The translations under genes and the position numbers were made by a program. Under the pieces are notes generated by a model that made no database searches, was not told the DNA's origin, and was given only the letters and a program-made list of their open reading frames with translations. A stretch of DNA of 64,000 nt, from the NCBI GenBank assembly GCA_025210375.1, contig JAOASB010000013.1, positions 1-64,000 on the forward strand, given 5' to 3'. The DNA comes from Maledivibacter sp. (GTDB lineage: Bacteria > Bacillota > Clostridia > Peptostreptococcales > Caminicellaceae). This document shows, one piece after another, positions 24,541 through 55,632 of the stretch (within the stretch, counting starts at the first letter, position 1; each line of letters begins with the position of its first letter).

Positions 24541-24651
24541 AGTCTATTTCTTCTCTATATACAATTTTTTTACTGAAATTCTATACCTTGGCATTATATT
24601 AGAAGTAAATACTGTGCTAGTGTCAGAATAAACTTTACGATAACTTGGTTC

Positions 24652-25377
24652 TTACTTCACACGCATGATAACTTCGTAATCAAGTTTATTTTTCCGTTTT
24701 TTCCAATCTGGCATGTACAGGCTTAGAAGATTATAAAACTCCTTACTATGATTTGGGTGTATAAAATGAATGAGTTCATGTAATAATACATATTCTATGC
24801 ATATTGAGGGTGCTTGATAAAGATAAAAATTGACAGTAATCTTACTCTTTTCTGGCAAGCAACTTCCCCACATGGTCTTCATTTTTCTTATAGAAATACT
24901 CGGTTTTTCGTAGTCATATTTCTTTATAATAGAATATAATTTATCCACTTTTTTATTTATTTTTTCAATTAAAGCATCTCTAATAAACTTATCAAATTGC
25001 TCTTTGATAATATGTTGTTTATCAAGATTTAGCGTTTCGATATATATTTTATCATTATCGTAATATACTTTTTTTTGAGCTGCCTTTTTTATAACTACAA
25101 TGGTATCAATACCAAAAAATTTTACTGACATACCACTTTTTAAATCAAAGATATTCTCAACTCCAGCAGTTTTCTGATATTCCTTTAGCTTTTCATTAAT
25201 CCATTTACTCTTTTGATTTAAAAACGATACTATCCACTTGTCAGATACATTTAAAGGCACAGAAATTGACACCTTTCCATCAGGAAAAACCTTTAATCTC
25301 ACATTCTTAACATTTTTGTGATAAACACTCACATTTATTTTGACATTTTCGCTAAGCACAATGCTAATACTATCCAT
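24652..25377 (-). CDS. YgjP/DUF45-like zinc metallopeptidase linked to type I R-M
   Basis: A 241-residue protein of the YgjP (DUF45) family. The zinc-binding motif is HELIHFIHPNHSKEFYNLL, with HExxH and a third histidine downstream, as in SprT/WLM-type peptidases. The N-terminal half is a beta-rich domain (VRLKVFPDGKVSISVPLNVS). In many bacteria genes of this family directly follow hsdR, as here with a two-base gap. Its substrate is unknown; trimming or controlling the restriction complex is a common guess. It is the last gene of the hsd operon. Confidence 0.85.
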   Translation of the reverse strand: MDSISIVLSENVKINVSVYHKNVKNVRLKVFPDGKVSISVPLNVSDKWIVSFLNQKSKWINEKLKEYQKTAGVENIFDLKSGMSVKFFGIDTIVVIKKAAQKKVYYDNDKIYIETLNLDKQHIIKEQFDKFIRDALIEKINKKVDKLYSIIKKYDYEKPSISIRKMKTMWGSCLPEKSKITVNFYLYQAPSICIEYVLLHELIHFIHPNHSKEFYNLLSLYMPDWKKRKNKLDYEVIMRVK

Positions 25378-25379
25378 AA

Positions 25380-28300
25380 TTAAAACCTCTTTTGTGCAAT
25401 CGACATCAACTTCTCTAATAATAAATCTAATATCTCATCACTCAAATCAAGATTGTTCTCTTCCATAAAGTCAAATAAATTGTCATCCAGTTTCCCTTCA
25501 ATTTTATCAATTACAATTTTACTATTTCGCCAATCACGTTTTGCATTTTCTTTTACCGTCTCTTTAACATCCAATGATAACTCAGCTATTTTTTCTTCAA
25601 AAGCCAAATCAATTTCGTCAATAACTTTCTCTTTAAACACCTTTAATATTGAGCCGTAAAAAGACTTCGCATCACTATCATTAGAAATAATGCTTGGGTA
25701 ACTACTTGTTGTTCTACCTTCTCTAAAGTTTTCTGTGATATCTTCCATGTTTTTATAATAGGCATCATCATTTCGATCTTTTAAATACTCATCAATCGTT
25801 TTCTTAATTCGCTCTGAAAATGTTAAAAACATAATAGGATCATCATGCTCAAATGTACTAATTTCGGATATCATTCTAGTTTTCATTGAATCAGCTTTGG
25901 CACGTTTATCACCACCAAAAATCTTTAATTGCTCTTCCATCTTTTGTTTATCAAGAATGCTAAGAGGTTCTACAACAATACGTACGTCTTCTGAACTGAT
26001 ATAAGTGTCCAAAAGCTGTCTTATACCATCCTCATATTTGCTAAAATCTACGCTATCATTGTATCTTAATGAAATAGCACTTCTTAATTTAACAAAGTGT
26101 AGGAGTTCTTTTCTATATTGTTCAGCTTGGTCATATCCTACTAATTTAAAAAGTTCATAACTAGAGTACATATAATCAACACATTTTGAGTATTTGCGCA
26201 ATCTTTCATAGAAATCATTTCTCAAGCTATCATTTTCAAGGAATTCCTGCCATACGTTTGAACGCATTTCGTTTCTATCAATCCCGTCAAACAATGCCCA
26301 TAAATCTTTATGAGCCAACTCTAATTTTCTTTTTTCATCTTCTGGACCAAATATAGCATTCTTGATGTCTTTTTCATCATATCCATCAAAACCTGATTCA
26401 CTATCACTATAAAGATCAAGAGCCGAATTTAACTTTTTGAACACACCCCAATAATCAACAATCAAACCAAATTCTTTACCTTCATAAAGTCTATTCACCC
26501 TTGCTATAGCTTGTAGTAAACTATGCTCCTTAATGCTTTTATCAATATATAAAACAGAGGCTATTGGTGCATCAAATCCCGTTAATAGTTTATCAACAAC
26601 TATCAATAGGTCAATTTCACCATCTTCGTCCTTAAAAGAGCCAGTTACTGATTCTTCATATGCATCTGTATTCTTTCCGAACAACGGCTCTACTTCAGAC
26701 TTAAAAAACTCTTCAATTTTCTTTAATCCCTTTTTAGAAGTATTATCTCCATTTCCTTCTGGTTTTACACCACTTGTAATTACAACTGCTGGATTAACAC
26801 CTTCAAAATTCTTAAGAATGTTATACATCTCTATCGCATAAGGTCGTGAAGAAACAGTCAACATAGCCTTTTGCCTTTTTGGCTTCAGGTAACGCATAAA
26901 ATGCTCATAAAGATCAAAAGCTACCATATAAATTCTTTCATTGGTTTGAGCTAGTGCAAAAAAACGGCTCCACTTTTTCTTAAGATCTTCCGTCTCTTTT
27001 TCGGTTAATGACGAAGTAAGATATTTTAAATGATCATTTATTTTATCACTTTTAACATCTTGCTTAATAACTCTTCCCTCATAAACAATAGGAACAGTTA
27101 CTTTATCCTCAACTGCGTCTTCTAAAGTGTATGAGTCAATCTTTTTTCCGAATTTCTTGTAGGTATTTCTTTTTTCTTTACCAAGCAACGGTGTTCCAGT
27201 AAAAGAGATTTTAGGAGCATTAGGCAATGTGTGTGTCATATATGTGTTTAACTTTCCATAGTGAGATCGATGTCCTTCATCTATCAATAAATAAACGTTA
27301 TCACTCTCATCCACATACTTTTCTTTCATTGCTGCTTCAAACTTGTTAATAATCGTTGTAATAACTGTATTCCCTTTTTCTTTTAATAAGCTAACAAGTC
27401 CCTTTCCTGTAGTTGCTCTAACAGGTGACATGCTCGTATTTATAAAATTATCACGCATTTGCTTGTCTAGACCTTTTCTATCAGTCACCATAACAAAGCG
27501 AGGATTTTTTATATCAGGGTCTTTTTGAATCATTTTAACAAGCATAATCATTGAGATTGTTTTGCCTGATCCTTGAGTATGCCAAATAACACCATCTCTA
27601 GTATCAGCATCATCAAGACCTTTGATTCTAGCAATACATTTATTTACAGCAAAGAATTGTTTATATCTTGCTATCTTCTTAATATTGTTATCATAGATAA
27701 TAAAATGTTTAATTATACTCATTAATCTCTTTTTATCTAATAATGAAATCATGGCTCTATCTTGTTCTAATATTTGACCATCTGGAGAAAACCGCTTGCA
27801 TTGTTCTTCTAGCCATAATCTATTGTCTTCTTTCCAGAAAGTAAAATGCTTTGCAGGTGTACCACAAGTTCCATATATTAATTTATTTGGATTAACAGCT
27901 ATAACTATTTGAGCGAACTTAAATAATTGAGGTATAAAATCTGGTTGCCAATTTCTTATATTTTGGTGGACTCCCGCCATTACATCTATTGAAGATTTCT
28001 TACATTCAATAACAGCTATAGGTATTCCATTAATCATCAAAACTATATCTGGTCTAGCGAACTTACCATTCATTCTTTCGACTTCAAATTCTTCCGTAAC
28101 CTGAAAAATATTATTTTTAGGATTCTTAAAATCTATAAAATGTATATCAAAGGATTGTAACGCGCCATCAGGCAGTGTTTGCTCAAGACTCATCCCCATA
28201 CAAAGAAGATCATATATCCGCTTATTGGTCATAGTCAGCCCACCAACTATTGGCATATCTAACTCTTTTATTGCCTTTTCTATAGAGTCAAGAGAGAACT

Positions 28301-28499
28301 GTATCTCTTGACCCTTGTATTCAAAACGTTGACTCAATAAAAATTCTCTAAGGACATCTTCAAAAATAACTCTAGATTTATGTTTCCTTAACTTTTCTGC
28401 ATCTGCTCTGGAGACAAAATCATAGCCCATTTGAGAAAATATCTTTAACATCCTATCTTGACTCTCTGGTCGTTCATTAAAAATATTGTGATTTGGCAT
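25380..28499 (-). CDS. hsdR: Type I restriction endonuclease, HsdR subunit
   Basis: A 1039-residue motor-nuclease. The N-terminal nuclease core is RPDIVLMINGIPIAVIECKK (D and ExK residues). The translocase has Walker A in HTQGSGKTISMIML, the DEAD-box variant LLIDEGHRSHYGK, motif III SFTGTP and motif VI LLQAIARVNRLYEGKEFGL. The C-terminal third is helical and contacts the methylase core. With HsdM and HsdS it cuts unmethylated DNA at a distance after translocation. The length is normal and no break is seen. It starts 11 bases after the full hsdS gene. Confidence 0.96.
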   Translation of the reverse strand: MPNHNIFNERPESQDRMLKIFSQMGYDFVSRADAEKLRKHKSRVIFEDVLREFLLSQRFEYKGQEIQFSLDSIEKAIKELDMPIVGGLTMTNKRIYDLLCMGMSLEQTLPDGALQSFDIHFIDFKNPKNNIFQVTEEFEVERMNGKFARPDIVLMINGIPIAVIECKKSSIDVMAGVHQNIRNWQPDFIPQLFKFAQIVIAVNPNKLIYGTCGTPAKHFTFWKEDNRLWLEEQCKRFSPDGQILEQDRAMISLLDKKRLMSIIKHFIIYDNNIKKIARYKQFFAVNKCIARIKGLDDADTRDGVIWHTQGSGKTISMIMLVKMIQKDPDIKNPRFVMVTDRKGLDKQMRDNFINTSMSPVRATTGKGLVSLLKEKGNTVITTIINKFEAAMKEKYVDESDNVYLLIDEGHRSHYGKLNTYMTHTLPNAPKISFTGTPLLGKEKRNTYKKFGKKIDSYTLEDAVEDKVTVPIVYEGRVIKQDVKSDKINDHLKYLTSSLTEKETEDLKKKWSRFFALAQTNERIYMVAFDLYEHFMRYLKPKRQKAMLTVSSRPYAIEMYNILKNFEGVNPAVVITSGVKPEGNGDNTSKKGLKKIEEFFKSEVEPLFGKNTDAYEESVTGSFKDEDGEIDLLIVVDKLLTGFDAPIASVLYIDKSIKEHSLLQAIARVNRLYEGKEFGLIVDYWGVFKKLNSALDLYSDSESGFDGYDEKDIKNAIFGPEDEKRKLELAHKDLWALFDGIDRNEMRSNVWQEFLENDSLRNDFYERLRKYSKCVDYMYSSYELFKLVGYDQAEQYRKELLHFVKLRSAISLRYNDSVDFSKYEDGIRQLLDTYISSEDVRIVVEPLSILDKQKMEEQLKIFGGDKRAKADSMKTRMISEISTFEHDDPIMFLTFSERIKKTIDEYLKDRNDDAYYKNMEDITENFREGRTTSSYPSIISNDSDAKSFYGSILKVFKEKVIDEIDLAFEEKIAELSLDVKETVKENAKRDWRNSKIVIDKIEGKLDDNLFDFMEENNLDLSDEILDLLLEKLMSIAQKRF

Positions 28500-28509
28500 G
28501 ACAATCCTC

Positions 28510-29715
28510 CTAACTCATGTTTGTCGTTCTTACTTTTCCTGTTAACAGTAATTGCATAAGCGATTTTTTCTTCTTAATTTGTTGCTCAAATTCATCATTT
28601 AGTAATTTGATTTCTTCATCTATTGCAGAAAGTATTCTTGCTATTTCTAATTGTTCTTCTGGATCGGGAATTGTTACATTAAGTTTCAAAAAATCTTTTT
28701 TGCTCATTACTCGGTTTCTTCCTGCACCACCCGGAGATATATCCTGCAATTGCTTCTTGAATTTATCTCTTAAAATGAAGAACTTAAAAAATTCTGGTAC
28801 ATTATCATTAATAAATTCATAAGTAGGAAATCTATGCGATACTAGCTTATTTTCATCTCGCTTATTCGCAATCGTAATCGCATGTTCCCACGCAAATGTA
28901 ATATTAGCTATTAAGTCATTTTCTTTTACTTCGTAAAGTATATCCATCGCATTCGTCTCTGGATTAGTTATAAATTCATGAAATGTACCTTTTCCATGAC
29001 TTCTAAGTCCTAACCTCCAATAGCCATTTAGAGGCTTATTTACTTTCCTTACTTTGTTCTCAACAACTTTGTTCAGTAAAACATTTCGCCACTCACCACT
29101 AAATCCATCTAATTGCTTAAAATATTCACTATGGTAATTTAGTAATACCTGCATTAAATATTTCTTTACATTTACCTTCTTTTCTATCAATTGTTCTAGC
29201 ATATGAATAATCTTATCTTGAGTTGATAGTATTTTTACAATTCTAATTTGCTCTTCTTTTGATGGTAACTGCACAAAAATACTTTCAATTGTTCTAGCAC
29301 TTAAACTTGGTACACCTGAAGCTTCATTATACCTATACCAATTTATTGAATCAAAAACGTAATAAAAGAATTTTTCACAACAGTCAATCTTGAACTCACT
29401 ATAAAACAGTGTATCTACTGTCCAAAAAGGAGTATTAAAATATTTAGGCTTATCGATTGTACCTTTTCTGCCTATCAAAACTGATGGCTTATTACATAAA
29501 AATTCATCAGTCCAGCCTATAATTCCTCCTGAAGCTAAAATTGGATATTTCCCATTAGGTACTTCTACTTTCTTTTGCGACTTTCCATGCTTTATTTTTA
29601 AAATCTCACCTATTTTGATGCATCGCCAATCATTAGGAATAATTCCTATCTTACTTTTCCAATAGCCCTCTGGAATAGATTCTTCTATTTCTGTTTTTTC
29701 ATTAAGTTCCATCAC
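28510..29715 (-). CDS. hsdS: Type I specificity subunit HsdS (full length, two recognition domains)
   Basis: A 401-residue protein with two target-recognition domains. Each starts at a typical entry (IGIIPNDWRCIKIGEILKI near residue 20, and GEWRNVLLNKVVENKVRK near 210) and each is followed by a helical spacer (LSTQDKIIHMLEQLIEKK and LSAIDEEIKLLNDEFEQQIK). The two half sites set the bipartite recognition sequence. It lies between hsdM and hsdR. A second, half-length HsdS precedes hsdM, so the system may assemble with either protein. Confidence 0.93.
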   Translation of the reverse strand: MMELNEKTEIEESIPEGYWKSKIGIIPNDWRCIKIGEILKIKHGKSQKKVEVPNGKYPILASGGIIGWTDEFLCNKPSVLIGRKGTIDKPKYFNTPFWTVDTLFYSEFKIDCCEKFFYYVFDSINWYRYNEASGVPSLSARTIESIFVQLPSKEEQIRIVKILSTQDKIIHMLEQLIEKKVNVKKYLMQVLLNYHSEYFKQLDGFSGEWRNVLLNKVVENKVRKVNKPLNGYWRLGLRSHGKGTFHEFITNPETNAMDILYEVKENDLIANITFAWEHAITIANKRDENKLVSHRFPTYEFINDNVPEFFKFFILRDKFKKQLQDISPGGAGRNRVMSKKDFLKLNVTIPDPEEQLEIARILSAIDEEIKLLNDEFEQQIKKKKSLMQLLLTGKVRTTNMS

Positions 29716-29775
29716 CTATTCCTCCTGATTTTCTTTACTTTTTTATTATCTTGTACATTATTAAAGAACAACATA

Positions 29776-31329
29776 TTACACCTCTAAGCCTAACTCTTTC
29801 ATATATTGTTCCATCTTAGCTTCGACTTCTTTTAATTCATCTTTTATATTCTTAATATTCATCTGTACTTCTTTAATATCAATTAGTTCTTCTTCTTCAA
29901 ATGTATCAACATATCTTGGAATATTAAGATTGTAATCATTCTCTTTTATTTCTTTAATACTAGCAAGATGAGCAAATCTATCTTTATCTTCTCTCGCATA
30001 ATATGCATCTACAATTTTTTGTATTTGATCTTCTTCAAATTTATTTTGATTCTTTTCTTTATTAAAATGTTCTTCGTTTGATGCATCAATAAAAAGTACT
30101 TTATCATCCTCTTTATTCTTCTTAAAAATCAATATGCAAGCAGGAATACTTGTTCCAAAAAACATATTTGCTGGTAAGCCAATGACTGCATCTAATAATC
30201 CATTTTCGATAACTTTTTGTCTAATACGTCCTTCTGCCGCTCCTCTAAACAATACCCCATGTGGTGCTACTGCCGCCACTCTACCATTGGCTGACATACT
30301 ATTAATCATATGCAATAGGAAAGCCCAATCACCTTTACTAGCTGGCGGAACCCCCCAATCAAAACGATGGAATTTATCATATGATGCTTCCATTTTCCAT
30401 TTCTTTCCCTTGCCATCTTCTTCTCCACCAGGATTGAAGTTGATAGCCCACTTGTCTTTTGAGAAAGGCATATTTGCAACAATAACATCAAAAGTCATTA
30501 AATTACCATCATCATCTTTATGCTGAGGGTTTGCAATTGTATCCCCCCATGCAATCTTTGCATCTCTAACCTTATGAATAAACATATTCATACGTGCCAT
30601 AGATACTGCTGATCCTCCTACTTCTTGCCCAAAAATGCTTACCTTATCAATGTCACCTTTTTTAGCTGCTCTGATTAGAAGTGATCCCGACCCACAAGTC
30701 GGGTCATATACTCTTTCTCCAGAAATTGGTGGCACTAATCTAGCCATTAATTCTGACACACAGGTAGGGGTAAAGAAACTACCTGCTTTCTTTCCTGCTC
30801 TAGATGCAAATTCTCCAATCATATATTCATATGCATCGCCAATTACGTCTGCTGGCACTTCGTCTTTTTTTACTTCAATCATTGATTCTCTCAAATCAAG
30901 ATTTTCAAAATCCTCTAATAGTTCTCTTAAGATACTATTTCGTTGAGTTCTATTTCCTAGATTAGCTTCACTATTAAAATCAATACTTCGAAAAACACCA
31001 GATAATTGTTGTGCATTATCTTCTTCAATACCTCTAAGTGCTGTATTTATTAGTTGACCTAATGTGTCATCATACCTATTCTCATATAGATATTTAAAGC
31101 TGTGTTCCCATTTAACCTTAAATGCAAGTCTATTTATCTGTCTTTTAAGTCTTCTTTCATCAGTATATTTACTCTTTAAATGCTCCACTTCTTCATCAAA
31201 AGTATCACTTAAATATTTTACAAACATTATAGAAAGAACATAGTCTTTATAATTTGCCGCATCTATTGTGTCTCTGAACGTATCAGCACCTCTCATTAGT
31301 GCTGCATTAATATCATTTCTAGTTGTCAT
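29776..31329 (-). CDS. hsdM: Type I modification methylase HsdM
   Basis: A 517-residue adenine methylase. The N-terminal helical domain starts NDINAALMRGADTFRDT. The SAM-binding motif I is VYDPTCGSGSLLIRA near residue 205. Catalytic motif IV reads VIVANMPFSKDKW, so the usual NPPF is NMPF; I recall this variant in some HsdM proteins and do not take it as inactivation. The C-terminal end is a coiled coil (NIKNIKDELKEVEAKMEQYM) that contacts HsdS. The start overlaps the end of the half-length hsdS gene by 11 bases. Confidence 0.95.
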   Translation of the reverse strand: MTTRNDINAALMRGADTFRDTIDAANYKDYVLSIMFVKYLSDTFDEEVEHLKSKYTDERRLKRQINRLAFKVKWEHSFKYLYENRYDDTLGQLINTALRGIEEDNAQQLSGVFRSIDFNSEANLGNRTQRNSILRELLEDFENLDLRESMIEVKKDEVPADVIGDAYEYMIGEFASRAGKKAGSFFTPTCVSELMARLVPPISGERVYDPTCGSGSLLIRAAKKGDIDKVSIFGQEVGGSAVSMARMNMFIHKVRDAKIAWGDTIANPQHKDDDGNLMTFDVIVANMPFSKDKWAINFNPGGEEDGKGKKWKMEASYDKFHRFDWGVPPASKGDWAFLLHMINSMSANGRVAAVAPHGVLFRGAAEGRIRQKVIENGLLDAVIGLPANMFFGTSIPACILIFKKNKEDDKVLFIDASNEEHFNKEKNQNKFEEDQIQKIVDAYYAREDKDRFAHLASIKEIKENDYNLNIPRYVDTFEEEELIDIKEVQMNIKNIKDELKEVEAKMEQYMKELGLEV

Positions 31330-31918
31330 TGCAATCCTCCGTTACTAGGTTTTGATAAACCCCTTTTAATAATTTCTTCTCTTGTTCTTCCAATTCTCTA
31401 ATCAACATTCTCTTATTATTATTTAATCTCCTAAGCTCTCCATACTTCTCCTGAAGTTCTAACGAAATAACAGGAATACTAATTTCTCCTAATTCCTTCT
31501 TGGATACTGATTGAATTGTTGTACCCTTACGAGAGAAATGATTGAGTTTTGATATGCCTTGCATTTCCAAAATGCTTGCAATATAATGGCTATTAATTCC
31601 CTTTTGGGGTCTAACAATTAAAATATTGCTTGTAACATATACTTTTTCTGTTTGGCTATGAAAGACATTAACATAACTTGGTGATAACCGCTTAATCAAT
31701 ATATCGCCTTGTTCAAGTAATGCTTTATCACTAATCTCCTGTGGGCGTAGGTGTTCATCAAATTCTTTTATAACATCAAATTCATCAAGTGATGATGGAT
31801 GTATACATTTATAACTATATCCTTCGTATATTTTTTTCTTCCATTCAGGAACACCCGTTATAATTTTACATACTTCTTTTAACTTCTTATTTTTAATGCC
31901 TATGGTACTCACCTCCAT
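31319..31918 (-). CDS. Half-length HsdS-like specificity protein
   Basis: About 200 residues with a single target-recognition domain (LKEVCKIITGVPEWKKKIYE, then EQGDILIKRLSPSYVNVF) and one helical spacer (YGELRRLNNNKRMLIRELEE), half of a normal HsdS. Half-size subunits can dimerise to recognise symmetrical sites or replace one half of the full subunit. The frame is open to 31957, but that part lies inside a terminator. The ATG at 31918 lacks a good upstream Shine-Dalgarno, while GGAGGTGAG lies just inside this start, so initiation may occur slightly downstream. It overlaps hsdM. Confidence 0.75.
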   Translation of the reverse strand: MEVSTIGIKNKKLKEVCKIITGVPEWKKKIYEGYSYKCIHPSSLDEFDVIKEFDEHLRPQEISDKALLEQGDILIKRLSPSYVNVFHSQTEKVYVTSNILIVRPQKGINSHYIASILEMQGISKLNHFSRKGTTIQSVSKKELGEISIPVISLELQEKYGELRRLNNNKRMLIRELEEQEKKLLKGVYQNLVTEDCNDN

Positions 31919-31925
31919 ACAAGCT

Positions 31926-31952
31926 AAAAAGCGAGAGTTGTCCAGCTCTCGC
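31926..31952 (-). terminator. Terminator between the DUF2188-like gene and the hsd operon
   Basis: On the minus strand GCGAGAG and CTCTCGC pair perfectly with an eight-base loop, followed by TTTTT. Only some 10-15 bases separate it from the half hsdS start, so hsd expression needs read-through or a promoter inside the upstream genes; it may act as an attenuator. Confidence 0.8.
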
Positions 31953-31962
31953 ATCATTGTCT

Positions 31963-32187
31963 TTATCCTTTTGGTGGAAAATCATCATTACCATGAGAAT
32001 CTTTTCTTTGAATTTTACCATTCTTACCGTGGATGACTAACTCTGTATTTTGGTTAGTACTTATTTGCCTAGCTATTCTCTCAGCTTCTGCTTTAGTATC
32101 AGTATGATGAGATGATCGTTTTGCTCCTCCACGTTTCACGTTCCACCCTCCATTAGGGTCTGGAACAACATGATGTGTATTTGACAT
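31963..32187 (-). CDS. DUF2188-like small basic protein
   Basis: A 74-residue protein (HHVVPDPNGGWNVKRGGAKR, then SSHHTDTKAEAERIARQIS, ending IQRKDSHGNDDFPPKG) matching DUF2188, small proteins thought to have a double-strand RNA-binding-like fold. Such genes are frequent near restriction and defence genes. The ATG at 32187 is chosen for its AGGAGGGA site at good spacing. It follows the 67-residue gene by 12 bases. Confidence 0.75.
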   Translation of the reverse strand: MSNTHHVVPDPNGGWNVKRGGAKRSSHHTDTKAEAERIARQISTNQNTELVIHGKNGKIQRKDSHGNDDFPPKG

Positions 32188-32199
32188 AATCATTCCCTC

Positions 32200-32403
32200 C
32201 TAACCTGTATGACATGGGTTACTACAGTAATAGCAGCCATTTACCTGAGTATAATATTGTCTAGCTTTACTGACTGCACTCTGACATGAAGAGTGATCAC
32301 CTAAATCAATTCTATTCTCTCTGTTAGGGAGTCTTGTGCAATTCTCCTTATGCACTTCATGGTCACCATTTGTTTGTTGGTTCTTATTAACGTAATATTT
32401 CAT
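32200..32403 (-). CDS. Small cysteine- and histidine-rich conserved protein
   Basis: A 67-residue protein (MKYYVNKNQQTNGDHEVHKE, later HSSCQSAVSKARQYY and NGCYYCSNPCHTG). The CYYCSNPCH end could bind zinc. I recognise this as a widespread small family, usually unnamed, often next to DUF2188 or DUF1883-like genes in defence regions. Function unknown. AAAGGTGA precedes the ATG, and the leader upstream is about 200 bases if the promoter at 32608-32637 is used. That leader is the target of the predicted antisense RNA. Confidence 0.7.
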   Translation of the reverse strand: MKYYVNKNQQTNGDHEVHKENCTRLPNRENRIDLGDHSSCQSAVSKARQYYTQVNGCYYCSNPCHTG

Positions 32404-32489
32404 ATAATATCACCTTTCCCTTTCGTAATTTAGATTATAAGATATCTTAATACCTTATCTTAGCTACAGTTTCAGGAAAAAGTTTCTTC

Positions 32490-32518
32490 TTGTTTTACAT
32501 ATCTAATTGATATATAAT
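32490..32518 (+). promoter_or_regulatory. Plus-strand promoter of the predicted antisense RNA
   Basis: TTGTTT (32490-32495), a 17-base spacer and a perfect TATAAT (32513-32518). It is the only well-formed plus-strand promoter found that is followed at short range by an intrinsic terminator. Confidence 0.6.
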
Positions 32519-32524
32519 GTATTT

Positions 32525-32597
32525 GCGAGATACACAAGAAGATGTGTAGAGGTTCAATTCACTTTAGGACAATTAGTGAATTGGACCTTTTTCTTTT
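32525..32597 (+). ncRNA. Predicted 73-nt antisense RNA with intrinsic terminator
   Basis: Starting about seven bases after the TATAAT at 32513-32518, the transcript would carry a small stem (ACAC/GTGT), then a 13-base-pair hairpin with arms GGTTCAATTCACT and AGTGAATTGGACC (32551-32587, one G-T pair, 11-base loop), and end in TTTTTCTTTTT. No good ribosome site or reading frame lies in it. A minus-strand promoter at 32608-32637 would transcribe the exact complement as leader of the 67-residue gene. The two RNAs would thus share complementary hairpins and loops, as in plasmid antisense control. Promoter and terminator are seen; the regulatory role is inferred. Confidence 0.55.
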
Positions 32598-32607
32598 TCC
32601 CAAGAAA

Positions 32608-32637
32608 ATAATACCATACAAACAAACACTGTGTCAA
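32608..32637 (-). promoter_or_regulatory. Minus-strand extended -10 promoter for the two small genes
   Basis: TTGACA (32632-32637), an 18-base spacer, and TATTAT (32608-32613) with a TG one base before it (extended -10). Transcription from about 32601 gives a 198-base leader before the ATG at 32403, crossing the antisense RNA in full. Confidence 0.7.
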
Positions 32638-32721
32638 TAATTATTTTTTGTAATCGTCTTACAAATACATTTTTTATAAAAAAACATGGTTTTTATCCGA
32701 AATATTTGCTTTTGTATTTAG

Positions 32722-33687
32722 TTAGCATTTATCATTATTGTTTATAGATGATTCAAAGATTTGCTCAAATATCTCATCATTTGCCCCTTCACCTAGTAAC
32801 GTGTATATCATATTTAAGTAGTAAGTACCATGTTTGCTTTTCCCCTTTGAATAATTAATTATAACGTTACAATTATTCATATTACATAATCTTCTCTCCT
32901 CATGTGGCTTATCCCCCGCACATAGAATCCTTATCATACAATTCTCAAATCCAACTTTACTCTTATCATTAAAAACCCCCAAATCATAAACGATACATTC
33001 AAACTCTGTTTCATTCTTGGAATTAAGAGGTTCAAAAGCAACACCTTTATAAATATAACCGTCTCCATTCTTCTCCATCTCATAATATTCAGCAATCAAC
33101 TTCATATGACCACTATCATTGGCTTCTACATAACTTACTTTTGCTCCAATTGAACTTAGATAAAAAGCAAACTGCATTGCCACTGTCGTAGTTCCAACTC
33201 GATGTTGTGACCCAACAACACCAATGGCTATTAGCTTTCCTTTAAAATCAATCATAGTCTCTTCTTTCACATCATATACCAGATTAAACTTATCTTTTAT
33301 ATACTTCTCTGTCATATCTTCTAGTAAACACATCTCAATCTCTTGCTTAAGCTTATCTACTTCAATTTCAGTAATGATATTGAAAAAGCCTAGTCTAATC
33401 AGTTCATGGACTAGGCTCTGCTCTTCATTTGGGATATAGAAACCTATCTTAATCTTGCTTAAGGACTTAAAGGCTCTAATGGCATCAATTATTGTTTCTT
33501 CTGTATTTATTAGACATGTTCGATCAACAACAATAGCTTGCACATGTCCTAAACGTTGTATTGATTTGATTAAAAAGTCTTTTAAATCAAATTCCCCTAC
33601 ATACTTTTTTATAACAAGCTCTTCCTTCTCTTTTAAAAAATCTAAGATATTCATATGAACTTTACTCGTTAAATAGAGTACCACCAT
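32722..33687 (-). CDS. CpaE-like ATPase with receiver-like N-terminus
   Basis: A 321-residue protein. Residues about 1-130 look like a degenerate receiver domain (LGHVQAIVVDRTCLINTEET). The rest is a MinD/ParA-like ATPase with a deviant P-loop, VVGSQHRVGTTTVAMQFAFY, in which threonine replaces the usual lysine. This order of domains is that of CpaE/TadZ, which places pilus or secretion machinery at the cell pole. Start ATG at 33687 with GGAAGGGGG upstream. It follows the small membrane protein gene with overlap and is the last gene of the transfer operon. A second ATPase of this type is at 56352. Confidence 0.6.
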   Translation of the reverse strand: MVVLYLTSKVHMNILDFLKEKEELVIKKYVGEFDLKDFLIKSIQRLGHVQAIVVDRTCLINTEETIIDAIRAFKSLSKIKIGFYIPNEEQSLVHELIRLGFFNIITEIEVDKLKQEIEMCLLEDMTEKYIKDKFNLVYDVKEETMIDFKGKLIAIGVVGSQHRVGTTTVAMQFAFYLSSIGAKVSYVEANDSGHMKLIAEYYEMEKNGDGYIYKGVAFEPLNSKNETEFECIVYDLGVFNDKSKVGFENCMIRILCAGDKPHEERRLCNMNNCNVIINYSKGKSKHGTYYLNMIYTLLGEGANDEIFEQIFESSINNNDKC

Positions 33688-33832
33688 AATTGCCCCCTTC
33701 CTGCACATTGATTTCAAATTGCCTTGGTATATCAAATTCTATTTCCTTCGGTTGAAAAAATAGAAGTGCGATTACACCAAAGATAATCAATACAATATAA
33801 AACATAATTTCAATCATATTAGTCTTTTTCAT
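33662..33832 (-). CDS. Short membrane protein between virB4 and the CpaE-like gene
   Basis: A 56-residue gene with one membrane helix (IEIMFYIVLIIFGVIALLFF, residues 7-26) and an acidic or neutral outer tail. It begins 25 bases after the virB4 stop and overlaps the CpaE-like start by 26 bases. The upstream ribosome site is weak (GGAGAATGATG), so its reality rests on fit and position. A single-helix subunit of the transfer machine is likely. No family recognised. Confidence 0.55.
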   Translation of the reverse strand: MKKTNMIEIMFYIVLIIFGVIALLFFQPKEIEFDIPRQFEINVQEGGNYGGTLFNE

Positions 33833-33857
33833 TGAACATCATTCTCCTTTACTTTTT

Positions 33858-34024
33858 CTATCTGCCACCACTGCTACCCATATAATCAAACTTATAGGAT
33901 GGTATATGAAAGTTCACATGAAGTCTCTTAGAACCAACCATCAATAATCCATCACCCCTTTTCTTTTGAGCAAGTAATGCTTCTTCTGCATCTGTTAGAT
34001 TATAGAGTTCTTTTAGCTCTGTAA
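33858..34024 (-). CDS. virB4: 3' exon of virB4 (C-terminal 55 residues)
   Basis: Directly past the intron end the sequence reads LTELKELYNLTDAEEALLAQ, then KKRGDGLLMVGSKRLHVNF and a stop at 33858. This is the expected C-terminus of VirB4-type ATPases (linker, RG-x-GL, then a short strand). It joins the 5' exon at 36682 in frame after the first base of a leucine codon (C|TT). Alone it has no start codon, so it is only made after splicing. Confidence 0.85.
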
Positions 34025-36681
34025 ATAGCGATAGGTAAACCTTTGATATAATCTCCAGCTTTTCCCCCGCTCCACACCGTGCATGAGACTTTCATCTCAC
34101 ACGGCGTTCCATCAATAATTATTTATTTACATTATTACGCAATTTCCTACCTTTTTCCTTAAAGAATTTAATTTTTTCACATTAATATTTTCAATCTTTT
34201 TCATATATTTCTCTATAGTTTCATCCTGAGTTGCATGAATCAATTTATGCACATCGCCACTTATAATAACTAGATTCTTATATTCATCACTTCCACCTTT
34301 ATGTCTAGGTTTCTTGTGGTGAACATATATATCTCCAATTTTCAACTTGTTTCCAGTCACGTAACATTTTCCACCTTGTGCCGTAAATAATGATAATCTA
34401 TTATCATTATATTCAATACTTTCACCTTGAACAGGATTATCCATTAGGTATCTTAATACAGTGATATTCACCATTTTCAATTTATTGTGAATTAATGTTC
34501 TTCCTTTAGCAGTATAGTTACAAATATCTTGGGAAAAACACATTGGTGGGACTGTTTTAATTGAGTATATTGAAAATAACGTAATCCCTTGTATATATTT
34601 AGCCTGTGCTTTCGAATGTCCATAGAGGTTTTGATATGTTCTGCTTTTTATTCCTTTGGTGCTGACAATATTTTTCAGTCTGTTTTTAATCATTCGATTA
34701 ATTTCAAATGCGATTTTATCAAAATCAAGAAATACATTTGTTGCAACTTTATAGTAGTTTTGCATTCCGAGGATTGTTGAGTTATATTTATATACATTTC
34801 CCACACTAACTTCTCTTTGTATTGCTTTTATGCATTTCACTAGCTTCATTTTACAGTTCTTTATGCTTTTATCAGTTAGGTGTGACCTAACAACCATCTT
34901 TTTATTTTTCTTATGAAGTTTGAGTTTAATTCCTAAAAATTCTGAGTAATTCTTTTTAAGATTTATTATCTTACTTTTTTCAGAACTTATTTCTAAATTC
35001 AATCTTTCTTTAAGCCACATTTTTGTGGCTTCAAATATTTTAATGGCCGTTTTTCTATCAGTACAAAATAATTTAACATCATCTGCATATCTTACTATAA
35101 ATACTTCCTTTAAGTTTGTTTTCTTTAAGGCTCTGTATTTATGCCTGCCTGAATATTGATGTCTTGTATCATAACATTCCCATTGTGAAGCTATCCACCA
35201 ATCAAGTTCATTTAAAACAATGTTAGAAAGTAAGGGGCTGAGTATTCCACCCTGTGGAACACCTTTTATAGGAATTCCACTCCCTTTAATTTCTGCTTTA
35301 CACATTTTAGATATTATACTAATCACACGTTTATCTCTTATGCCAAGACTCCAAATTTGTTTTAATAATTTGCCGTGGTTCACATTATCAAAAAATCCTT
35401 TGATATCTATATCCACGACATAATGGAATTGACTAACTTGCATAAGTCGCATTGTTCTTGCAATAGCATGATGTGTTCCCCTATTAGATCTAAATCCATA
35501 GCTATGTTTATAAAACTTAGCTTCACAAATAGGTTCTAATATCTGTTTTATACATTGTTGAATGATTCTATCTTGAATTGTAGGTATTCCCAGTGGTCTC
35601 ATTTTTCCATTGGTTTTTGGGATTTCAACACGCTTTACTGCCATGGGTTGATAATTAGATAATCTATTTCTGATATACTCTACCAATTTATCAGGCTCTT
35701 TTTCTCCTATATCTATAATTGTACTTTCATTCACACCTTTGGTCTTACTTCCTTTATTCTTCTTTATATTTCTATAGGCTAGAAGTATATTTTCTCTACT
35801 GATAATCAAGTCATAAAGTTTGTAAAAGTTTTGATTATTTTTAGACTGTAAATATAATTTATCAAACACCTTTTGTGTATCATAATATTCATTATGCCGA
35901 AGCACTTTCTTTTTCTTTAGTTTATCTGTAGGTATAAGGCAACACTCCTTTATGTAGGAAATGTTTCTCTTAGTCATACTCGAAACTTATATCTTGCGTA
36001 CTACTGCTTTTAATATAATTATTGACTTGTGGCTATCCCTCCACCACTTGTTATCATGGTTTCATTAGTACTATGCCACTACTCTCACTGATATTAAGAT
36101 AAGTTATACATTATTGCTTTCCTTATCAACATGTCATTGGTTTCCCAAAACCTCTTTGCTATCAGCTTTCCACGTTCCGATAATTTTATCTTTACATATA
36201 TATCCTTAGGTTTTCTCTTTGAGCCTGTTCACATCATATCGCCTATAACGATATCGGGACTTTCATAAAAACCACTCTTACTCATCCTGTGAACCTTACA
36301 TTTAGTAAGTATAGCTTTTCAGCTATATCGGCATATAGACCCGTACATTCGAGAATTCGTCAGTTAAACCTTTATTTTTAACATTCTAACCATAGATATT
36401 TTATAGACTCCCGACCTATCATATACTCGACTTTTTACAGTTCGCTGTTCCTCAGCTTTACCTGTTAGGGTATATTCTCAGTCGACTTCTACGAGCTTAT
36501 AACGGTATAGTATTGGGATACTATCCGCTATTCGTAGTATTAGAGAGGGCATTTCAAGGTGTTAATCTATCATTCTACCCTTCAAATTATCAGTTCTCCA
36601 GATTATTGTTTTGAAAGCTCCTTTCATTCTTTCTCTAATTTTAGTCTGTGCCTAACCTTTTCAGTTAGGAACGTGTCACAC
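34025..36681 (-). mobile_element. Group II intron 1, in virB4
   Basis: A 2657-base intron. The 5' end is GTGTGACACG (36681 downward), the group II consensus. The 3' end has a domain V hairpin (GCCGTGTGAGATGAAAGTCT region, near 34095-34065) and a domain VI whose CCTA branch-point is seven bases from the end, CGCTAT|TTAC. Splicing restores virB4 exactly. About 700 bases of ribozyme precede its protein gene. It shares end sequences with introns 2 and 3 but the proteins differ clearly, so these are separate relatives and not recent copies. Confidence 0.92.
34127..35977 (-). CDS. ltrA: Group II intron-encoded protein 1 (RT, maturase, HNH)
   Basis: A 616-residue multifunctional protein. The reverse transcriptase has RT0-RT7 motifs, with the catalytic YADDVKLF near residue 295, and VDIDIKGFFDNVNH and KGVPQGGILSPLLSN before it. 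A maturase (X) domain follows. The C-terminus holds an HNH nuclease (GKCYVTGNKL, HHKKPRHKGGSDEYKNL, HKLIHA). It binds the intron RNA to help splicing and copies it into new target sites. All catalytic parts appear intact, so it should be active. Confidence 0.95.
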   Translation of the reverse strand: MTKRNISYIKECCLIPTDKLKKKKVLRHNEYYDTQKVFDKLYLQSKNNQNFYKLYDLIISRENILLAYRNIKKNKGSKTKGVNESTIIDIGEKEPDKLVEYIRNRLSNYQPMAVKRVEIPKTNGKMRPLGIPTIQDRIIQQCIKQILEPICEAKFYKHSYGFRSNRGTHHAIARTMRLMQVSQFHYVVDIDIKGFFDNVNHGKLLKQIWSLGIRDKRVISIISKMCKAEIKGSGIPIKGVPQGGILSPLLSNIVLNELDWWIASQWECYDTRHQYSGRHKYRALKKTNLKEVFIVRYADDVKLFCTDRKTAIKIFEATKMWLKERLNLEISSEKSKIINLKKNYSEFLGIKLKLHKKNKKMVVRSHLTDKSIKNCKMKLVKCIKAIQREVSVGNVYKYNSTILGMQNYYKVATNVFLDFDKIAFEINRMIKNRLKNIVSTKGIKSRTYQNLYGHSKAQAKYIQGITLFSIYSIKTVPPMCFSQDICNYTAKGRTLIHNKLKMVNITVLRYLMDNPVQGESIEYNDNRLSLFTAQGGKCYVTGNKLKIGDIYVHHKKPRHKGGSDEYKNLVIISGDVHKLIHATQDETIEKYMKKIENINVKKLNSLRKKVGNCVIM

Positions 36682-38302
36682 GATTCTTGCCATCTGTGCC
36701 TAAGAGTACCTTAAAACACGGGATATCTAGTAATGCTTGACCATACATTCTGATTGGTGGTGCAAGGAAATCCACGACTGAATGAGATACGATAGCCAAG
36801 CCTGCTTCATACTTTCTTGCTCGCTTAGCTACATCCCTAAGAAAAACCAAGGATTGTGGCACTCTTGGATCAATCATTAAATAAGCTTCATCAGCAATAA
36901 GTAAGACGGGTTCTGTTCTGTCTTTACTCATCTCATTCCAACACCAGGTCAATAGATTAAAATATTGAGTTTTCTTCACGTTATCACTGGCATTTTGTAA
37001 TGAAAAAGTATCTAGGCAAATGCATCTGGATTCTGCTTTGATACTACTATGTCCACCAAATAAAAAAGAATCGCCACCTATAGCGATATCTTTAAGTAAT
37101 GTTGACAGTTCTTTATAATCTGTTTCTTCTTTTGACTTTTCTAATATCAGTTCATACAAGTCCTTCATGATAGGAAAATCTTCATTCTTTAAAGGTCTAA
37201 TATCTGTATCCCAATAAATCTCAAAGTTGTTATAGAGTTCGATTAAGGCTGATTTTAATAGAGCTTTTTGAATTTCTGTAAGTTCCATATAAAGATTGAA
37301 AAATACCTCTACATTTTTTAGATGAAGAGCCATTGCACCCAAACCCTCAGCTTCATCTTCTTCACTGGTTGCAGGTATATCTCTTATCTGTAATGGATTG
37401 ATTCGACCATTACTGCCACCACCTGCATTAATCACATCGCCACCCAACGCTTGGCATAGCTCTCGATACTCTGATTCAGGATCGATAAAAAGAATTCGAG
37501 TACCTTTCATATATTCAGATATGGCAAGATGTTTGACCACTGTGGATTTTCCTACGCCTGCCACACCAAGTATGGTGAAATTACTGTTGGTTCTATCGCC
37601 ACCTCGTTTCCATGTATCTAGCACAACCAGTCCTCCACTGGAATCCTTTGCAAAGTAATACCCTCTACCATCACTGTAGCCACTAGTTGAAAAAGGATAA
37701 CCACCAACAAATGTACTCATTGGCATGACTCTTTGTAGTATATTTCCTATGTCCTTATGTCTTCTGTAATAAGGTGAGAGGTTCTTGAAAGCTTGCTCTT
37801 GAAGGTTAGCAAGAACTCTCCCTTTACATTTAGATGAAGCGATGGCACTCTGAGTTTTTCTACATACTTTTTCAAAATCCTTATCGTCTTTGGATAAGGG
37901 CATAATGCTTAGACTCATTGCACCTACCGATTGATTATCACCATCAATACTCTCGATCATTTTATCCCCATCAAGAGCTGCCCGTTCAGCTCGTTGTTGT
38001 AAAATGGGATCTTTATTGTAGACAGCATCACTTCTATTGCGGATAATGCTACTGGATATACTATCCATGAAATCACTACCGTCAACGGGGTTGAAGGTTA
38101 TACTTGTAATGGTTTTAGGAACATTGGTGAGTTTGGATAACCAACCATAATCCACTTTTTGAGGATATTTGACTATGCCATAAACCTTGGCTATATTTTC
38201 ACCTATTATTAAACTGTTTCTTTTCATTTCAACACCAATGGGTGTTAACATACTTAGCAAGGTTTGATTGGGCAATTTTTGTTTTTCTATTTGCTTTTTC
38301 AC
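36682..38302 (-). CDS. virB4: 5' exon of virB4, conjugation ATPase
   Basis: The first 540 residues of a VirB4/TraE-type ATPase that powers the type IV secretion channel. Walker A is GVAGVGKSTVVKH near residue 250; Walker B is PVLLIADEAYLMIDPRVP near 470. The sequence ends LLGTDGKN before the intron; unspliced mRNA would add five residues and stop. Splicing to 33858-34024 gives a 595-residue protein. It lacks the usual N-terminal domain, which appears to be the separate 212-residue protein encoded just upstream (38299-38937, four-base overlap). Confidence 0.92.
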
Positions 38303-38937
38303 GATACAGCCACCTCACTTTTTTCATAGATAGAGTTATTGACCAAACTACATAGTCCTACGATATCGCCCTCTTTAAGCAAGGTACAAGGGACACCACA
38401 ACTTTCAAAACGCCTGATAAAATCTTTGGCTCCTTTAATCAAGTCTTCTTCAACACCATCACAATATTTCTGCCAAAGAACAATATAAAACTGGCGTTCA
38501 ACAACCTCGCCAGATAGAGCATAATCATTCATCTCAAGAATTTCTTTTCTAAGTAGTGCCTTTTGTATTTGATCGGTACTATCATGAAGTATGTCTGTAT
38601 ACTCTTTGATAAGTGCTGAAATATCAACTGGTCGAGATATAGCTATGAATTTGAAGGGTTCATTTAAACTTGAAAGTTCTGCTGTTAGCATGTTGCATAA
38701 TGATTCTTTTTCTCTCTCCGATAAAAGTTCAATGGATATGGGTTGAATTTTAAAGTAACTCATTACATAATTATCTTTGGTATATAGAAAGTGATCTTTG
38801 ATATCCACAATATTAACAAAGTCCTGTGCAGTATTTATTGATATTTTGTTTGACGCCACGAATTTTGTGTAAAAAAAATACCCTATACCTCCGAAAAGGC
38901 ATAGGGCAATCATTATAATTGGTAGCATCATAGGCAT
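38299..38937 (-). CDS. Membrane-anchored VirB4 N-terminal-like protein
   Basis: A 212-residue protein with one N-terminal membrane helix (MLPIIMIALCLFGGIGYFFY). The rest (FTAQDFVNIV-like start, LTAELSSLNEPFKFIAISRP, LRKEILEMNDYALSGEVVER) resembles the N-terminal domain of VirB4/TraC proteins. The gene overlaps virB4 by four bases. I infer that the two halves of VirB4 are split here into two proteins, with the N-terminal half fixed to the membrane. A terminator-like hairpin lies inside the first 25 codons. Moderate confidence, as the similarity is from pattern memory. Confidence 0.6.
   Translation of the reverse strand: MPMMLPIIMIALCLFGGIGYFFYTKFVASNKISINTAQDFVNIVDIKDHFLYTKDNYVMSYFKIQPISIELLSEREKESLCNMLTAELSSLNEPFKFIAISRPVDISALIKEYTDILHDSTDQIQKALLRKEILEMNDYALSGEVVERQFYIVLWQKYCDGVEEDLIKGAKDFIRRFESCGVPCTLLKEGDIVGLCSLVNNSIYEKSEVAVS
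38871..38906 (-). terminator. Terminator-like hairpin inside the 5' coding part of the VirB4-N gene
   Basis: On the minus strand CCCTATGCC and GGTATAGGG pair (one G-T) around TTTTCGGA, followed closely by eight T. It begins 31 bases into the gene at 38937. It could terminate or attenuate transcription before virB4. The run of T also encodes FF of the membrane helix, so it may be chance. Confidence 0.4.
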
Positions 38938-39281
38938 TCCTCCATATCATCAACTAAAGGAATCTTCACATAGTACTCGATTTTATCAAAACGTTTCATG
39001 TACTTCTCTACCTGTTCGTCAGTTAAGGATATAGGCTCTTCTCCACCATTATCACCAACTATAATAAAGTTGCCTGCAATAACGTCACCATTGTCAAGTT
39101 CTCTGTTACCTTCTAATCCCAAAAGCTTACCAACCTCATTACAAAACATAACTGTGTTATTATCTAAGATTACCAGTTGAGCTTTCCCTTCAACCAGTAG
39201 TTTAAAATTTTGATTGCTATTTTTAAATTCAATAATTTCTGGTTTTTCTCCTACTCGAACATGTATACCTTTTATTTTCAT
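38928..39281 (-). CDS. DUF3846-like protein
   Basis: A 117-residue soluble protein. It starts MKIKGIHVRVGEKPEIIEF and includes DNGDVIAGNFIIVGDNGGEE followed by SLTDEQVEKYMKRF, the pattern I recall for DUF3846, common on Firmicute conjugative elements and phages. Function unknown. It overlaps the NlpC/P60 gene before it by four bases and the VirB4-N gene after it by ten, so it belongs to the transfer operon. Confidence 0.6.
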   Translation of the reverse strand: MKIKGIHVRVGEKPEIIEFKNSNQNFKLLVEGKAQLVILDNNTVMFCNEVGKLLGLEGNRELDNGDVIAGNFIIVGDNGGEEPISLTDEQVEKYMKRFDKIEYYVKIPLVDDMEECL

Positions 39282-40510
39282 TTCGTATCATCTCCTTTAT
39301 TTTCAATTAATATGGCAGGTCTTCTAAAATAACGAAATCCTTTTGTTTCAGCGTCATCAATAGAAACATTATTAGCACTTGAATTACAATGAGCTACAAG
39401 AATTTTGCCATTATCACTTACTGCAACAACGATTCCAATATGATTGATTTTTCTTGTGTTGGGTGCAGCTATAAATGCCAGATCACCTTCCTTTACTTGT
39501 ACTTTAGTGATAGATGTTGAAATGTTCCACTGGGCTGTAACACCATGTCCAATAGTTCTATCAATGGTCGTATGATCTAATCCAGTATTGGCAAACACCC
39601 AAGTTATATAACCACTACAATCTAGTCCAAAGGGTCTTACTGTCCCAGTTGACCTGCTACCATCAGCAGTTACTTCTCTAGGTGTTCCCCATCTATTATC
39701 CCAATCTGTTGCTAGGCTTTTGCCACCCCAGAAGTAAGATACTTTACCAACTAAGCTCTTAGCTTTCCCTACTATCAAATCTCTATCAGTATGATAGTCT
39801 ACTGGCAAATAGGATTTTATCAAATCAATTTCATCATTTATAAGAAACATCTGTCCATCTATCCCAAGGATATAATCACTACTCTGAAGGACTTCCTTTA
39901 AAAGTTGATTTTGATCAGTATCAAACTTATATCTTGTAGCCATTTCTTCTGCTGTTAAACTATTAATGGTGATAGTTTTATGATGGATTGTAATTGTAAT
40001 TATTGATGTATTGCCATTTGCATCTGTCACAGTCTTTTCTTCTCTTTCCTCTTCAATAACCACATCTATCTGATTCATTTCCCAAAAGAGTATCTCCAAT
40101 TTTTCTTTACTTGCTCCATCGATATAAGCAACTTGCTCACCATTTTCTGTTGTTTGTAAAACACTAAAAAAAGATAACACTTGAACTGAATTATCAATCA
40201 AGGTGTTATCTTCACTGCCCATGACAATGGTTTCAATAGAATCCATATCAGGGTCTTGTTGTTCTATTTCAATTTTTTCTTGAAACTCGGTTTGTAACTC
40301 TAACATATATGCCTGAACTGAAATGTCTTCTTCACTGCTTCCACCATTAAATAAACTAGAAAATATGATGAATGGTGAAGATAGTAAGAGTAAAATCAAT
40401 ATAAGCGGTGTTAATACAGCTATAAGTATGATCCACCGCCCATTCTCACTTGAACCAAGTTTGCCAATAGTGGTTGCTACTTTTGCTATGGTTAATGGGT
40501 CTACTGCCAT
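39278..40510 (-). CDS. Membrane-anchored NlpC/P60 peptidoglycan hydrolase
   Basis: A 410-residue protein. One membrane helix (residues 26-52, IILIAVLTPLILILLLLSSP) anchors it and the C-terminal 170 residues form an NlpC/P60 domain. The catalytic Cys is in FGLDCSGYITW near 300, the His in NHIGIVVAV near 365, and the polar third residue in HCNS. It cuts peptidoglycan peptides to let the transfer channel through the wall, the role of VirB1 or CD1107-like proteins in Gram-positive elements. It lacks the SLT domain found in some relatives. AAGGAGGTAG precedes the ATG. Confidence 0.9.
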   Translation of the reverse strand: MAVDPLTIAKVATTIGKLGSSENGRWIILIAVLTPLILILLLLSSPFIIFSSLFNGGSSEEDISVQAYMLELQTEFQEKIEIEQQDPDMDSIETIVMGSEDNTLIDNSVQVLSFFSVLQTTENGEQVAYIDGASKEKLEILFWEMNQIDVVIEEEREEKTVTDANGNTSIITITIHHKTITINSLTAEEMATRYKFDTDQNQLLKEVLQSSDYILGIDGQMFLINDEIDLIKSYLPVDYHTDRDLIVGKAKSLVGKVSYFWGGKSLATDWDNRWGTPREVTADGSRSTGTVRPFGLDCSGYITWVFANTGLDHTTIDRTIGHGVTAQWNISTSITKVQVKEGDLAFIAAPNTRKINHIGIVVAVSDNGKILVAHCNSSANNVSIDDAETKGFRYFRRPAILIENKGDDTK

Positions 40511-40522
40511 CTTGCTACCTCC

Positions 40523-40542
40523 TTACGGTAAATCGGGTGCAA
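40523..40542 (-). CDS. 3' exon of the secreted-protein gene (last six residues)
   Basis: After intron 2 the sequence reads TT GCA CCC GAT TTA CCG TAA. Joined to the G at 43337 this gives VAPDLP and a stop. The next gene's ribosome site (AAGGAGG) overlaps this stop, the normal spacing of an operon, which supports this intron boundary. Confidence 0.7.
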
Positions 40543-52956: not shown

Positions 52957-53081
52957 TTAACGATAGGTAAGTCTTTGAAATTATCTCCAACTTTTCCCCC
53001 GCCTCACACCGTACGTGAGAGTTTCCCCTCATACGGCGTTCCATCGGTTATTATTTATTCTTATTAATTTTGATTATTCAA

Positions 53082-54896: not shown

Positions 54897-55632
54897 AGGT
54901 CGGCTTTTTCTCCTGTAGGATTATTTTGCCTCTCTTAATCTTACTCGAACCCTATTAGTTGTTGTTTTCAAAATTAATATTTTATTATAATAACTGACTA
55001 GTGGCTATCCCTCCACTACTTATTATCGTAGCTTCATTGGTACTGTGCCACCACTTTCACTATAGTTAAAGCAAGTTATACTATTGTTTTCATTGCTACC
55101 ACTTCATCAGAATTTAGTCCTCCATGTCCATAGCTTACCACGTTCCGATAATTATATCTTTGCATATACCCTTAGGTTTTCTCTTTGAGCCTGTTTGCTT
55201 GATATTGCCTGTAACAATATAAGGTTTTTCATATCAACCAGTCTTACTAAACCCCACAAACTACACACTTTGGTGTCATTAGCCTTTCGGCTAATCCGAA
55301 TTATAGACACGTACATTCAAGAATTCGTCATTCAAGCGTTTTGCACTTGAAATACTAACCATAGGTATTTTATAGACCCCCAGCCTATCATACACTCGAC
55401 CACCTCTGGTTCGCTATTCCTCAACTTTACTTGTTAGGGTGTACTCTCAGCTGACTTCACCGAGCTTATGACCCTTATATGCTAAATCATATAACGCCAT
55501 TCGGAGTATCAGGGATAGCGTTTCAGGACGTTACTCCTTCATTCCACTATATCTAACCATCAGTTCTACTAAATCAGAACTTTCACGTTCATTATTTAGT
55601 GCGTAACCTTTTCAGTTACGAACGTGTCGCAC

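Follow-up and report, generated by a model that had tools for sequence, protein, structure and literature searches.

In the copy control of plasmids such as pT181 and pIP501, a short antisense RNA is complementary to a 5′ leader, and the two RNAs carry complementary loops. Control of a gene by an antisense RNA over the 5′ end of its message is a familiar arrangement, and a plausible one at the locus described here. In E. coli, SymR is a short cis-antisense RNA over the 5′ part of the message of a small gene, symE, in a mobile island (PMC1891008). SymR transcription begins within the gene, and the RNA spans the ribosome site (PMC1891008); SymE-family genes occur near restriction-modification (R-M) genes (PMC1891008, PMC3874152). 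Facing promoters are known from the EcoRI and Eco29kI systems, the EcoRI antisense RNA, Rna0, being 88 nt long (PMC3874152). Antisense transcription in these two systems lies within the type II R-M genes and acts on R or M directly.

We analysed a stretch of 64,000 nucleotides from a Maledivibacter sp. contig (JAOASB010000013.1), called the window below. A 318-bp intergenic gap holds a leader and two facing promoter-like sites, and all genes flanking the gap on both sides are carried by the minus strand. Like SymR, the RNA predicted here (about 73 nt, 32525-32597, plus strand) would lie, within a mobile element, over the 5′ region of a message for small proteins. Unlike SymR, it is a predicted RNA that would end about 120 nt before the ribosome site, and the 67-aa protein encoded by the first gene is without demonstrated relation to SymE. 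The predicted RNA is similar in size to Rna0, and as in EcoRI and Eco29kI there are facing promoter-like sites near R-M genes, whereas here genes of other kinds come first and a terminator-like hairpin intervenes. The initial annotation had likened the locus to plasmid copy-control or type I antitoxin RNAs, and neither likeness could be kept. Copy control is rejected because, unlike in pT181 and pIP501, no replication gene lies downstream, and the antisense-bound leader has no predicted terminator here. Antisense attenuation, in which binding would favour a terminator in the leader, was also rejected: the one long-range stem that resembles a terminator is built from leader nucleotides that the antisense RNA would cover, and the predicted effect has the wrong sign. 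Type I toxins are small, usually hydrophobic peptides, and a toxin-antitoxin pair does not fit because the 67-aa protein is Cys/His-rich and confidently folded in a globular model.

A one-directional terminator-like hairpin between facing promoter-like sites

The top plus-strand terminator-like site of the window, at −20.4 kcal/mol, lies in the 318-bp gap (32550-32599). A 13-bp hairpin with a T-run had been annotated at this site, and it is present: the arms at 32550-32563 and 32575-32588 form 13 Watson-Crick pairs and one U·G pair in the plus transcript (14 pairs) around an 11-nt loop, and TTTTTCTTTTT follows. Sites of this class occurred 3 times in 40 shuffled 64-kb strands and in 0 of 4000 shuffles of the intergenic region, so that the element is far beyond shuffled expectation. 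Its orientation is that of a terminator in the plus direction only, though the plus strand is without genes. A single plus-strand ORF of at least 60 aa in the window does not lie opposite a minus-strand ORF (71 aa, 139-354); with this exception, the earlier description of the antisense RNA as the sole plus-strand gene candidate in 64 kb broadly holds.

Just upstream of the hairpin is a weak candidate antisense promoter (32490-32518, plus strand), with TTGTTT at 32490-32495, a 17-bp spacer and TATAAT at 32513-32518, from which transcription would start near 32525; the TATAAT stands at a suitable distance for such an RNA. Scored with our own approximation of a sigma-A matrix, which makes all ranks given here indicative, it stands 36th of 63,965 positions in the window. 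Its score was equalled in 838 of 4000 shuffles (21%), and therefore the promoter, although it lies where it had been annotated, cannot count as above chance in this AT-rich stretch. The −35 box matches the consensus at 3 of 6 positions, for which reason a simple scanner did not list the site. On the opposite strand, the extended −10 promoter of the initial annotation was recovered well above shuffles. It consists of TTGACA at 32637-32632, an 18-bp spacer and TGnTATTAT ending at 32608 (32608-32637, minus strand), matches 11 of 12 consensus positions in addition to the TG, and places the start near 32601; it ranks 4th of 63,965 minus-strand positions and was equalled in 3 of 4000 shuffles.

The predicted leader that follows this sense promoter is 198 nt long (32404-32601, minus strand), reaching to the ATG at 32403, and its first 77 nt or so are complementary to the predicted antisense RNA. 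The T-run on the plus strand stops where the sense transcript is predicted to start, so that the predicted 73-nt RNA (32525-32597) would exactly cover the 5′ end of the leader and pair with its nucleotides 5-77; complementarity is full over this length, as the annotated exact complement requires. The RNA is predicted to fold into two hairpins, a small one of 6 bp and then the 14-pair hairpin with the 11-nt loop, with a folding energy of −25.1 kcal/mol (z = −5.6). The antisense terminator hairpin is at the same time the first hairpin of the leader, and therefore both RNAs would expose complementary 11-nt loops. An intrinsic terminator forms the predicted 3′ end within the sense leader, one of the marks of a 5′-overlapping cis-antisense RNA.

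Three things are read directly from the sequence: the hairpin of terminator type, the consensus of the sense promoter and the complementarity. A one-directional terminator between two facing promoter-like sites, in a place without a plus-strand gene, is best read as belonging to a cis-antisense RNA of about 73 nt. For the annotated 73-nt RNA, only the terminator and the sense partner are well supported, and the plus promoter is at chance level. This last point favours a different and unlikely explanation, in which no discrete short RNA exists and the strong terminator only stops stray antisense transcription from the cargo entering the conjugation genes, a role that would suit a gap with minus-strand genes on both sides. 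Two features of position argue against it: TATAAT with a TTG at 17 bp lies just upstream of the hairpin, and the terminator abuts the sense start and not some other part of the 318-bp gap.

The leader and the possible action of the predicted antisense RNA

Taken by itself, the leader folds better than its shuffles (z = −5.1). Two alternatives are predicted, a local hairpin ACACAUCUUCUUGUGU and a long-range stem between UCUUCUUGU and ACAAGAAGA, and in the predicted fold the 5′ end GGGAAAAAG competes with the Shine-Dalgarno region for CUUUUUCC. Could the hairpin then serve the p67 sense message alone, stabilising its 5′ end or acting as a structural switch, the T-run being the mere complement of an A-rich 5′ end? 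The folding and the competing pairings speak for this possibility, which we nevertheless regard as improbable. At one stem position the plus RNA has a U·G pair where the leader is mismatched, which hints slightly that folding matters for the plus RNA. Furthermore, the predicted switch varies with transcript length. According to the fold prediction, antisense binding would block both 5′ elements of the leader, and opening the ribosome site of the antisense-bound leader is predicted to cost 2-3 kcal/mol more in transcripts of up to 250 nt. In transcripts longer than 250 nt the predicted difference is inconsistent, and a translational switch at the ribosome site, not being robust to transcript length, is therefore not claimed.

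A DNA operator for a regulator of the element, made of the 14-bp inverted repeat that spans roughly +14 to +52 relative to the sense start, would be well placed just downstream of the sense promoter, but it is very improbable given that the repeat is single copy in the genome, that its 11-bp centre is long, that the adjoining T-run is left unexplained and that no cognate regulator gene was identified nearby.

An antisense RNA of about 73 nt, transcribed from the weak facing promoter and most likely lowering the expression of the p67 and DUF2188 genes, remains the best explanation of the locus, and we hold it with middling confidence. In this model, the weak plus promoter faces the strong promoter of the two genes and would make the RNA at 32525-32597, which would pair with the 5′ end of the leader and lower the expression of the small cargo genes. 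Pairing could act by duplex formation and RNase III cleavage or by altered folding of the leader, and collision of the facing polymerases may add to the repression. Cleavage of a duplex at the 5′ end by RNase III, or promoter collision, is the safer proposal for the mechanism. Production of the plus RNA, repression by it and the step of its action are inferences. If real, it would be a compact, testable case of a conjugative element dosing small, exchangeable cargo genes associated with defence.

Within its own genome, the leader occurs once. Neither blastn against plasmids and phages nor DNA searches of genomes of the order (394) and of the phylum (398) brought up a homologue; apart from the leader's own copy, the DNA searches gave only short matches of chance strength. 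A search of viral contigs with the pattern of the hairpin arms returned 8 stretches, none with an 11-nt loop, similar flanks or a T-run, and these were set aside as chance or unrelated palindromes. Matches in an Rfam scan were confined to group II introns.

The p67 and DUF2188 genes

The direct target of the predicted antisense RNA would be a two-gene unit on the minus strand. Its first gene, p67 (32200-32403), encodes a 67-aa Cys/His-rich orphan protein that matches phrog_4298, and the second (31963-32193) a 76-aa DUF2188 protein, which matches the PADLOC candidate PDC-S16. An alignment of 22 members of the p67 family from several phyla has invariant Cys and His positions, and the structure model of p67 is globular and of high confidence (pLDDT 96); comparison with solved structures gave no convincing match by sequence or fold.

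In distant bacteria, the p67 family recurs beside genes of restriction type that are unrelated in kind, and in other islands it stands alone. The neighbours include an MmeI-like type IIG enzyme (L024), a type I R-like protein (L028), a cytosine methylase with Vsr (L035) and HSDR_N-domain proteins (L031, L037 and L039), all picked by eye and without a background control. The family may be one of small defence-associated proteins. Among the fetched loci, p67 and DUF2188 genes are not found together elsewhere, and homologues of the Hsd proteins of the window are not within the fetched flanks of p67 relatives. An antisense terminator shared upstream of other p67 genes was also considered and is not consistent. 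The Bacteroidales copies (L003, L004, L029 and L030) have a common upstream hairpin, TTGCTCGTTCAnnCAATTCCACGAACAAGCC, about 55-95 nt before the start, perhaps a separate leader element.

The type I R-M operon

The transcript from the sense promoter had been annotated as leading to a type I R-M operon. The leader precedes p67 and DUF2188 and not an R or M gene directly, and the link is weakened by a terminator-like hairpin between DUF2188 and hsdS. This hairpin, GCGAGAGCTGGACAACTCTCGC with TTTTTAG (31931-31952, minus strand), stands directly 3′ of DUF2188 and upstream of the half-size hsdS, where it would close the two-gene unit. With this hairpin between the small genes and hsdS, it is doubtful that the R-M operon is controlled, and R-M could be affected only if transcription read through 31952-31931.

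A matrix scan of the minus strand found no good promoter for hsdS, so hsdS may be co-transcribed by read-through. From the leader promoter to hsdM there is likewise no good minus-strand promoter, the best candidate being at 32039-32012 inside DUF2188 with a score of 8.7. This, together with the recurrence of other kinds of R-M genes near p67 relatives, is consistent with one long transcript from 32601 through which the antisense RNA would also control the type I R-M operon. We consider such joint control improbable, in view of the terminator-like hairpin directly after DUF2188 and of the fact that Hsd or DUF2188 homologues do not accompany p67 elsewhere among the fetched loci. Less probable still is the broader proposal that a cargo-specific antisense RNA quiets p67, DUF2188/PDC-S16 and, by read-through, the type I R-M genes, perhaps during establishment in a new host. 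A limited literature search turned up no type I R-M operon described as being under antisense control.

Read at its greatest length, the half-size hsdS ORF (31319-31957) begins inside the unit before the terminator-like hairpin. Its GGAGGTGAG is followed at 8 nt by an ATA codon, and no ATG, GTG or TTG is found at normal spacing. No close relative of the half-size hsdS was found in 388 genomes of the order or in plasmids.

The conjugative element and its cargo

The conserved backbone of the element includes the 337-aa gene upstream of the leader and, beyond that gene, the VirB4-like genes. One of two relatives compared, L061, matches the window at 93% over 32970-34024 and at 91% over 36682-40542. 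At the same position of the element, the cargo of the window is replaced in L061 by a type IIG R-M enzyme together with a second methyltransferase, and the other relative, L062, has DndF and DndG genes. Neither the leader nor a comparable hairpin is present in L061 or L062, and the leader with its hairpin is therefore part of the exchanged cargo and not of the backbone.

A single insertion spot downstream of the 337-aa gene corresponds to 24626-32970 in the window, 5804-11883 in L061 and 4360-7518 in L062. Its cargo differs by genome, with type I R-M and DUF2188 in the window, type IIG R-M in L061 and DndF/DndG in L062. The locus illustrates how, within one family of elements, the restriction or Dnd-type genes at a single insertion spot can differ from host to host. 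Elsewhere in the window, three group II introns with ORFs (34025-36681, 40543-43226 and 52957-55568) split genes of the element. For the first two of these, L061 shows the empty sites, its sequence running on without a break at 34024/36682 and almost without one at 40542/43323.
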